From positions 1 to 20,890 of IMG/VR virus record IMGVR_UViG_3300007345_000373: 20,890 bases of DNA; one strand, written 5' to 3'. Under the pieces are notes generated by a model that worked only from the letters and a program-made list of their open reading frames with translations, did no database searches and was not told the origin of the DNA. This document shows, one piece after another, positions 17,792 to 19,766 of this stretch (positions within the stretch are counted from its first letter, which is position 1; every line of letters starts with the position of its first letter). Both the position numbers and the translations under genes were made by a program. Origin of the DNA: a virus.

Positions 17792-18196
17792 GTGTCTGCA
17801 CAGGATATTTTGGATCGTGTCGCATTTTTTAAGCAAATTGGTACAGGTAGATGGGTTTGCACTTGCCCATCCCATCAGGATAAATCTCCAAGCCTAAGAA
17901 TTACTGAGACTGATGACGGTAAGGTCTTAATCAAGTGTTGGTCTGGCTGTTCAGCCTTAGACGTTCTTACATCTATCGGCTTGTCCTGGTCGAGCTTATT
18001 TCCTGATGATGGTTACAGACGGACGCGGGTTCAGCGTGATGATCGGGTCGAGGACTACATTGTTGAGTTTGCTGAGTATGCCAAAAAGACCGGCAAGCAA
18101 TTAACCCAAGCCGATAAGCAGGCGTATGCCAGAGCTTTAAAGAAAGGTGGTCGCGCTAATGGTTTCGTTAGTAAGGTCATTAAGGAAGCATCGTGA
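17792..18196 (+). CDS. CHC2 zinc-finger primase-like protein lacking Toprim domain (134 aa)
   Basis: GTG start at 17792, supported by AAGGGGG upstream. The N-terminal 75 residues are the CHC2 zinc-binding domain of DnaG-type primases: CPSHQDKSPSLRI with Cys25 and His28, then CWSGCSALDVLTSIGLSW with Cys49 and Cys53, then LFPDDGYR. The rest (75-134) is a charged helical tail ending FVSKVIKEAS. Only the template-recognition domain is present; there is no Toprim catalytic fold. In other phages this domain is fused to Toprim-helicase; here the helicase is separate, two genes downstream. The protein may present template to a host primase or to another phage enzyme. The next gene overlaps (GTGA). 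Confidence 0.8.
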   Translation: MSAQDILDRVAFFKQIGTGRWVCTCPSHQDKSPSLRITETDDGKVLIKCWSGCSALDVLTSIGLSWSSLFPDDGYRRTRVQRDDRVEDYIVEFAEYAKKTGKQLTQADKQAYARALKKGGRANGFVSKVIKEAS

Positions 18197-18816
18197 GTAT
18201 TGAGGCTATTAATTGGGCCCTTAACAAGGTCACAAACGTGACCAGCACTCAGAAGGCCGTACTCATTGCCTTAGCGGATAGGGCAGACGCTCAAGGGAAA
18301 TGCTTTCCTAGCTATCAAGACATCATTACCAGAAGTTGCGCGTCACGCAATGCAGTATGCAGCGCATTAGCCTCCTTGGTGGAAAAAGGGCTTATCTCGA
18401 AGGAGCCGAGGTTTAACAAGTCTACGATCTACACCTTGAACCTTAGCGGTACGGAAATGAATACCGGCGATAGCGGTCTTCAGATGAATACCAGTAGCGT
18501 TACGCAAATAAAGAACGCTAGCGGTATAGAATTGAATACTCTAACCATCAAAGAACCATCAATTAACAACCAAAGGGGTAAACGTGGCCGTTACAAGCCG
18601 CCGGAGGAAGTCGATAAAAGTGTCTGGAAGGACTGGGTGGCGTATCGTCAAGAGTTTAAGGGGCCGACTACTGACAGGTCACTAGCGATAGTTGCCAACA
18701 AGTTAAAGCCCTTGAGTCATGCCAAGCAGAGGGAGTGCGTTGACATGGCTATTGAGTGTGGGTGGAAATCAGTGTTTCCTAAAGACAATAAAAATGATGG
18801 GGAGTTTATTCTGTGA
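18193..18816 (+). CDS. Winged-HTH replication initiator, lambda O-like (207 aa)
   Basis: GTG at 18193 (GTGA overlap). Residues 1-82 form an HTH_36-type winged helix: AINWALNKVTNVTSTQKAVL, CFPSYQDIITRSCASRN and ALASLVEKGLISK, then a wing of two strands. Residues 84-117 are a Ser/Thr/Asn linker with a fourfold repeat of S-G-x-[EQ]-[ML]-N-T, which is the translation of the DNA iterons at 18444-18539. A basic patch (RGKRGRYKPP) follows. The C-terminal domain at 140-207 (VWKDWVAYRQEFKGPTTDRS and on) may contact the helicase. Layout, order before helicase and the embedded repeats resemble lambda O, so I infer an initiator that binds its own gene as origin. Sequence homology to O itself is not claimed. 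Confidence 0.7.
   Translation: MSIEAINWALNKVTNVTSTQKAVLIALADRADAQGKCFPSYQDIITRSCASRNAVCSALASLVEKGLISKEPRFNKSTIYTLNLSGTEMNTGDSGLQMNTSSVTQIKNASGIELNTLTIKEPSINNQRGKRGRYKPPEEVDKSVWKDWVAYRQEFKGPTTDRSLAIVANKLKPLSHAKQRECVDMAIECGWKSVFPKDNKNDGEFIL
18444..18539 (+). repeat. Four iteron-like direct repeats (candidate replication origin)
   Basis: Four 21-base copies with the consensus TAGCGGT-N6-ATGAATAC begin at 18444, 18471, 18495 and 18519, so the pitch is 27, 24 and 24 bases. TAGCGGT is exact in copies 1, 2 and 4 (TAGCGTT in 3); ATGAATAC is exact in 1 and 2, TTGAATAC in 4 and degenerate in 3. The T before AGC is kept in all four although the encoded residue differs (Leu, Asp, Ser, Ala), and Ser is AGC each time. 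That points to constraint on DNA rather than on protein. Confidence 0.75.
18540..18575 (+). other. A-rich, G-poor segment beside iterons, candidate unwinding element
   Basis: About two thirds A+T with only one G on the + strand between 18541 and 18574. It holds AACCATCAA twice (18543-18551 and 18554-18562), 11 bases apart, and then AATTAACAACCAAA. An AT-rich, strand-biased tract immediately following four iterons is what the lambda origin has; here it is inferred to be the site of initial strand opening. Confidence 0.5.
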
Positions 18817-19766
18817 GACAGATACAACAGTCAGAGGTTGAGGACTTTACCGATAAAGACTTGCAAGACGTTTATGGCAAGGTCGAGGATTTAGACGTTG
18901 TAGACATTGATGCCTTTCGGGAGGAGTTTCTTAACCATCTAGTAACCGATGCGGCCCAGTCGGGCATTCAGTTGCCCTGGGCTGAGACAAGCGATCTTGT
19001 CAGGCTTAGGATGGGCGAGGTTTCAGTCTGGGCGGGTATTAACGGCCACATGAAATCTACCGTTTTAAACCAGTGCCTTACATGGGCAGCGTCAAAGGTT
19101 CCCGTTGGGTTAGCTAGCTTTGAGATGAGCGTTAAGGATACTGCCAAGCTAATGTGTATGCAGTCAGCCGCTAGCGATCAGCCAACCAGGGATTACGGCG
19201 AGCGGTTTGCCAATTGGTCAAAGGACAAGATTTTTTGGTATCGGATACTTGGAGGGGTTCAGCCTATTCAATGCTTAGGGGCGATTGTCGCGATGGCAAG
19301 GCGAGGCTGCAAGATCGTTGCCATTGATAATCTACAGTTTACTGGCGTCACGGAGGACATACAGCGTGAGCGGTTATTTTTTAATCAACTCATGGGATTG
19401 GCTGAGGCGCTGGATATACACATTGCTGTTGTGCATCACGTTAGGAAGCCAGAGCGGGGGGGAGATGAGTATGTCCCGACTCGCTTTGATGTACGAGGCG
19501 GCGGGACGATTACGGATCAGTGCCATCTTTTGATGATCGTCTGGCATAACAAAAAAAGGAAAGAGGCGCTAAACAAGCAGATGTATGGGATACCGCTAAA
19601 CGAAAGAGAGCAAGAGGTTTTAGAAAAGCAGTCAGACCTCAAGCTGGTAGTGGCAAAACAGCGTCATGGCACTGGCTTTGAGGGAACGATAGGGCTTTAT
19701 CAGACATCTGGCCGGGCGTTTAAAAAGAGGGAGAACTCAACCGCGCTGATATTGGAGGGCATATGA
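18813..19766 (+). CDS. DnaB/Twinkle-like replicative helicase, RecA fold (317 aa)
   Basis: GTG at 18813 (GTGA overlap). Residues 66-245 carry the RecA-type core: Walker A AGINGHMKST (74-83, Lys81), SFEMS at 102-106 with the catalytic-type Glu104 as in DnaB SLEMS, Walker B KIVAIDNLQ (167-175, Asp172), the VVHHVRKP segment at 206-213, and FDVRGGGTITDQCHLLMIVW at 225-244, corresponding to DnaB motifs H3/H4. It should be a hexameric 5'-3' helicase at the fork. No N-terminal DnaB or primase domain is present; residues 1-60 are acidic and may bind a loader or the initiator. The Walker A has Met where Gly is usual before Lys. Confidence 0.82.
   Translation: MRQIQQSEVEDFTDKDLQDVYGKVEDLDVVDIDAFREEFLNHLVTDAAQSGIQLPWAETSDLVRLRMGEVSVWAGINGHMKSTVLNQCLTWAASKVPVGLASFEMSVKDTAKLMCMQSAASDQPTRDYGERFANWSKDKIFWYRILGGVQPIQCLGAIVAMARRGCKIVAIDNLQFTGVTEDIQRERLFFNQLMGLAEALDIHIAVVHHVRKPERGGDEYVPTRFDVRGGGTITDQCHLLMIVWHNKKRKEALNKQMYGIPLNEREQEVLEKQSDLKLVVAKQRHGTGFEGTIGLYQTSGRAFKKRENSTALILEGI

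Follow-up and report, generated by a model that had tools for sequence, protein, structure and literature searches.

A phased AACC tract beside exchangeable iterons in a putative intragenic origin of phages with HTH_36 initiators

In phage lambda, the replication origin lies within the initiator gene O, where four palindromic iterons with a pitch of 20-24 nt occupy the middle of the gene and a strand-biased A-rich tract follows on their 3' side. O binds these palindromes as a dimer, and the AT-rich DNA next to them opens (PMC7466680, PMC6022878). Among known gene layouts, that of 18-12-ninB in phage P22 comes nearest to the one described here and is closer to it than lambda O-P. In P22, an initiator gene with an internal origin, made up of iteron-like repeats and then an A-rich repeat tract, stands directly ahead of a replicative helicase gene that the phage itself carries, with ninB a short way further on. 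The mechanism by which initiators open the DNA beside the sites they bind is still described as unsettled; at oriC, the DnaA-trio provides short repeats within the unwinding region that are read as sequence beside the initiator sites (PMC5043065).

The DNA analysed here (the window) is an entire IMG/VR record, linear and 20,890 bases long, and is probably a fragment of a phage genome. It had originally been predicted to contain a lambda-O-style origin. The architecture of that prediction was found as described and is conserved among relatives: direct repeats in the linker-coding part of an initiator gene, an adjacent AT-rich and strand-asymmetric tract, and a helicase gene next. The protein itself proved to be of another family, as shown below.

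The initiator gene and its neighbours

The initiator gene (18193..18816, on the + strand like all features given here) encodes 207 amino acids, with a winged helix, a disordered linker and a helical C-terminal domain. Its N terminus matches the Pfam domain HTH_36 (PF13730) at 5e-12, with 45.9 bits against a curated cut-off of 25. Membership in the lambda O family was considered and rejected, as the protein gave no match to PF04492, the domain found in lambda O (6e-36) and in P22 gp18 (Phage_rep_O, 7e-38). It also matches several PHROGs annotated as 'replication initiation' or 'O-like' (7e-21 to 6e-19), which places it among the HTH_36 'O-like' phage initiators (PF13730; PHROG 1032/678/391).

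In an AlphaFold (AF2) model, a winged helix (aa 18-82) is followed by a linker, with aa 87-132 predicted to be disordered (pLDDT<50), and then by three C-terminal helices (aa 142-155, 161-171 and 176-189). The DNA-binding part containing HTH_36 (aa 1-82; 18193..18438) covaries with the iteron type, as described below, and the helical C-terminal part (aa 142-189; 18616..18759) is presumed to contact the helicase or another partner. No solved structural homologue of the initiator was found by sequence, and a fold search with the model returned generic winged helices only (E>0.01).

The next gene (317 aa; 18813..19766) had been predicted to encode the helicase, and this agrees with our searches. 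Its product matches the T7 gp4 helicase structure (PDB 1e0j, 2e-6) and phrog_239 (DNA primase/helicase, 4e-32); among Pfam domains, AAA_25 was barely above and DnaB_C barely below the cut-off. Judged by these matches, it is a phage-encoded homologue of T7-gp4-type hexameric helicases. Upstream of the initiator lies a gene for a DnaG-type zinc ribbon (134 aa, primase zinc domain only; 17792..18196), which matches phrog_6088 (DNA primase, 6e-18) and, under the cut-off, Zn_ribbon_DnaG (1e-3). Zinc ribbon, initiator, helicase and NinB follow one another in this order in most relatives as well.

Across 17792-19766, a T7-gp4-like primase-helicase seems to be split around the initiator, with no primase polymerase domain in between. 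Seven related records, possibly fragments, gave no Toprim_2 match. The P-loop sequence of the helicase is GINGHMKST in the window, compared with GINGHKKST in the relatives looked at (L030, L032 and L091), and both versions are without the usual glycine ahead of the lysine. In L091, initiator and helicase form a single open frame of 482 aa (from 2501), which may be a true fusion or the result of a sequencing error.

Iterons constrained as DNA and exchanged with the binding domain

Four direct repeats with a pitch of 27, 24 and 24 lie inside the linker-coding region: iteron 1 (TAGCGGTACGGAAATGAATACC, 18444..18465), iteron 2 (TAGCGGTCTTCAGATGAATACC, 18471..18492), the degenerate iteron 3 (TAGCGTTACGCAAATAAAGAAC, 18495..18516) and iteron 4 (TAGCGGTATAGAATTGAATACT, 18519..18540). 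Their number and pitch are those of the original prediction. When the window was shuffled 100 times with its dinucleotides preserved, no shuffle reached the observed number of consensus matches. Copies 1 and 2 fit the consensus TAGCGGT-N6-ATGAATAC exactly and copy 4 has one mismatch; copy 3 has four and thereby escapes a search allowing three. The window iterons are weakly palindromic, with a dyad score that was equalled in 16 of 1000 synonymous randomisations. By the same procedure, dyad symmetry is strong (0/1000) in many other iteron types (L013, L027, L077, L082 and L084), and significant symmetry is absent from some arrays, for example those of L021, L065 and L068.

Every pitch is a multiple of 3, in coding sequence for a segment predicted to be disordered. 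The repeats could therefore be a peptide repeat in a flexible linker and nothing else, arisen for instance by tandem duplication without a function of the DNA. We compared the four copies while holding the encoded peptide fixed. Their mean pairwise DNA identity is 0.72, against an expected 0.555 +/- 0.033, and only 1 of 20,000 synonymous randomisations made them as alike. Thirty distinct relatives carry arrays in the equivalent disordered linker; in 29 of these no synonymous randomisation out of 1000 was as repetitive, and in the other one 3 were.

As this within-array test alone leaves a recent duplication possible, we turned to codon comparisons between phages that have the same binding-domain type but diverged sequences, using the residues they have in common. 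The codons of these residues were usually better kept in the array than in the rest of the gene. Synonymous identity was 26/29 in the array and 54/120 elsewhere for L017 and L029 (p=7e-6), and 18/18 and 40/102, respectively, for L023 and L027 (p=4e-7). Over two 30-nt bins, the arrays of L017 and L029 share about 96% of their bases, with flanks at 50-60% identity. Synonymous conservation of the array was the check proposed along with the original prediction, and its outcome is favourable. On the synonymous tests we reject a repeat kept for its peptide only, a reading that we find scarcely credible, and according to these comparisons the constraint on the iterons acts at the level of DNA. The predicted reason was only partly correct: T-AGC is constant across the four window copies, but the AGC codon varies in relatives, where AGT and GGT occur.

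Arrays can also differ between close relatives. Between the window and L009, no part of the gene varies as much as the array, which is 66% identical in 30-nt bins (gene-relative positions 240-300). The neighbouring genes of these two phages are essentially identical despite this divergence. The variability is consistent with recombination of array segments, as if exchange were frequent. A natural change in iteron number is seen in phage cdtI (L157, 1266-1397), where a block of iterons is duplicated in tandem, exactly 66 nt, relative to SfV.

Several recognition-helix types occur among the relatives, and each goes with iterons of its own kind. In a partial Mantel analysis, the array was correlated with the DNA-binding domain at 0.44 (0/2000) and with the C-terminal domain at 0.15 (16/2000). 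By this measure, the iterons are co-inherited with the HTH domain and far less with the C-terminal domain. In two separate swaps (window/L017 and L016/L029), binding domain and array were replaced as a single block; the flanks are mostly 75-100% identical, the exchanged block mostly 26-73%. On its right-hand side, the block stops where the array stops or shortly after the start of the tract that follows it. The C-terminal domain is exchanged independently of binding domain and iterons, and one binding domain can precede at least two unrelated kinds of C-terminal domain (in L030, L032 and others).

The AACC tract downstream of the iterons

An A-rich, G-poor tract had been predicted directly after the repeats, and it indeed begins at 18541, immediately after iteron 4. 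A-richness turned out to be an incomplete description. The tract (CTAACCATCAAAGAACCATCAATTAACAACCAAAG, 18541..18575), a putative unwinding or loading element, contains AACC at 18543 and 18554 and a degenerate AACA at 18565, that is, with a pitch of 11 nt. This pattern occurs once in the window, against 0.06 expected. In all 30 of the distinct relatives the tract is almost invariant, synonymous sites included, whatever the iteron type.

To quantify this feature, we defined a chain as three or more AACC spaced 10-12 nt; with two exact units and a degenerate third, the window itself falls short of this definition. From 270 collected initiator genes, 115 remained after dereplication. A chain was present in 65 of these 115, which share ancestry and are thus not fully independent and of which five (L109, L130, L135, L136 and L143) had entered through the tract pattern itself. 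Permutation of synonymous codons within genes gave 7.3 +/- 2.0 genes (maximum 13). Because AACC and the 10-12 window were chosen after some of the 115 genes had been viewed, a ranking of all tetramers and a scan of spacings are the fairer tests. AACC ranked first of 256 tetramers (65 genes), followed by the overlapping ACCA (40) and GAAC (39) and then by CACC (12). The spacing peaked at 11-12 nt, and a minor harmonic was seen at 22-23. The orientation is fixed, as a chain of the reverse complement GGTT was found in 0 genes. A direct repeat (>=14/16 bases) lies within 45 nt upstream of the chain in 62/65 genes, compared to 1/65 after shuffling.

In 63 of the 65 chain genes, the AACC copies stand in more than one reading frame and are translated as LT, RT or EP. 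Units at 10-12 nt in different frames are a further argument against repeats maintained for their peptide. Many genes that fail the strict definition hold a degenerate version of the chain, such as L029, or L073 with units 25 nt apart. Of the L132-family genes that were matched via their C-terminal part only, many have no AACC chain. Of 17 whole records, 11 contain the three-unit pattern, at a single place each, and in every record that could be matched to a fetched locus this place was the initiator; the pattern is absent from three array-less relatives.

We also searched for the tract independently of the initiator. A scan of IMG/VR for CTAACCAYCAWNGAAYCAYCAA returned 58 stretches, and among them, besides members of the window's family, were four quite different HTH initiators (L110, L111, L117 and L132), each with its own repeats immediately upstream of the tract. 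In 84,980 prokaryote genomes the same pattern gave ten matches, of which seven lie in initiators from Halomonadaceae or Aquabacterium, with an estimated chance level of a few matches per 257 Gb searched. The matches L149, L153 and L156 lie outside any initiator and probably arose by chance. In phages retrieved through protein similarity and not through the pattern, looser units (AGAACC, GAACC or TAACC) recur every ~11-12 nt right after the repeats. A blastn search of phages with the tract consensus gave unrelated matches only, the Halomonas query found no viral relative, and a scan with the SfV protein yielded near-identical copies only. In the open-licence PubMed Central papers searched, we found no description of an AACC tract; BstA/aba, a candidate from this literature, is a different element.

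It could be argued that the tract is a simple unwinding region of low stability and that AACC reflects composition or common descent. Indeed, the GC content of the tract is below that of the gene in every set (0.39-0.46 versus 0.48-0.64), and the genes have HTH_36 ancestry in common. However, composition hardly accounts for 65 genes with AACC against 12 with the next unrelated tetramer, for the sharp spacing, or for the fixed strand combined with mixed reading frames. In high-GC phages the tract still has 46% GC. Nor is it the least stable DNA of the window: it ranks at about the least stable 5% at 36 bp and is unexceptional at 60-100 bp. We therefore consider a simple unwinding region unlikely. 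Taken at the level of sequence, the tract is a phased AACC element and more than AT-rich DNA, and it is retained across unrelated iterons, several C-terminal domains and different partner genes.

A proposed origin and its relation to known systems

The original reading of the region as an origin is supported overall. We think it likely that 18444-18575 forms a theta-type phage origin inside the initiator gene, where the opened tract would be read as sequence and the helicase loaded. We infer the steps of binding, melting, reading and loading as follows. The initiator would bind the four iterons through its HTH_36 winged helix, probably as dimers because the iterons seem to be imperfect palindromes, and the resulting nucleoprotein complex would open the DNA immediately downstream. 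The AACC units would then be read as sequence, most likely on the captured single strand, either by the HTH_36 half common to these initiators or by a conserved host factor. Finally, the T7-gp4-type helicase would be loaded via the exchangeable C-terminal domain.

Initiators often autoregulate, and the iterons could instead be an operator or copy-control site, with replication starting elsewhere. Such a site would suit the absence of a skew change at the iterons: GC skew is positive over the entire 20.9-kb record, which, since this is probably a fragment, counts neither for nor against an origin. Array-less relatives also fit an operator. L086-L092 have an HTH_36 domain (recognition segment AHRETV) and the helicase family of the window (seen in L091), together with a short linker, and their gene contains neither repeats nor AACC tract. 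The three of their records that were searched (39, 36 and 11 kb) had no AACC chain anywhere, and their origin was sought and not found; therefore, the intragenic origin is not universal. On the other hand, the array lies mid-gene beside a conserved tract and not at a promoter, and the equivalent layout is a proven origin in lambda and an annotated one in P22. An operator as the sole function thus seems quite improbable to us, and we retain the origin reading.

As to what reads the tract, a host protein (DnaA, IHF, primase or another) might dock there or bend the DNA, and the initiator would then not be the reader. Initiators that differ in C-terminal domain and partner gene have kept the tract, and a spacing of about one helical turn would suit a protein that binds duplex DNA. 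However, PF04492 phages of the same broad host group, lambda and P22, have a different tract, with ACACAAAAGACA in common, which points to the initiator class and not to the host. We regard a host docking site as somewhat unlikely. Since the tract is kept with HTH_36 initiators and differs in the PF04492 phages, the HTH_36 class is the common factor; the conserved N-terminal half of the initiator is thus the first suspect as reader, and a host factor the main alternative. Tentatively, we propose that HTH_36 initiators of proteobacterial phages could share an undescribed sequence-specific element: oriented AACC units at ~11 nt, 3' of exchangeable iterons, serving as a signal for strand capture or helicase loading.

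In natural genomes, binding sites and tract appear as separable parts, as the iterons move with the DNA-binding domain and the tract stays. This offers a compact, mutable test case for the question of whether an opened strand is recognised by its sequence. The AACC rule may also serve as a simple aid for finding origins in phage genomes with unfamiliar iterons.

The window protein belongs to the family of HTH_36 'replication initiation O-like' proteins found in lambdoid and Pseudomonas phages (SfV, cdtI, LESphi3, Itty13 and CUB19); the Pfam domain was tested and is present in SfV and LESphi3. Lambdoid phages with HTH_36 that are recorded from E. coli include mEp460 and Ayreon. Like the window, cdtI, SfV, LESphi3 and CUB19 have linker repeats followed by an AACC tract, and the tract is also found in Itty13, but iteron sequences, C-terminal domains and partner genes (P, DnaB or unknown) differ. 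P22 shares the layout of the window, yet its gp12 is annotated as DnaB-like and not T7-gp4-like, and its tract repeats ACAAAAGACA at 14 nt instead of AACC at ~11 nt. Lambda has no AACC chain, its iteron sequence is unrelated, and its partner is the loader P acting with host DnaB, whereas the window encodes its own helicase. The tracts of lambda (L099, ~920-960) and P22 (L372, ~1925-1960) have ACACAAAAGACA followed by ACAAAAG in common despite differing iterons, and the PF04492 class may have a conserved tract sequence of its own.

More distantly, the window protein shows weak winged-helix fold similarity, with low TM-scores and no sequence match, to PDB 4pql, 4pt7 and 5kbj, which we take to be RepA_N-type staphylococcal plasmid initiators. 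In the RepA_N family, too, iterons lie inside rep. The DnaA-trio of oriC and the 13-mers of RK2 resemble the AACC tract as short repeated units in an unwinding region; unit, spacing and initiator class are unrelated, and the likeness is an analogy only. If our proposal is true, the AACC element would correspond in phages to the DnaA-trio, and its reader would be either the conserved half of the initiator or a host factor.
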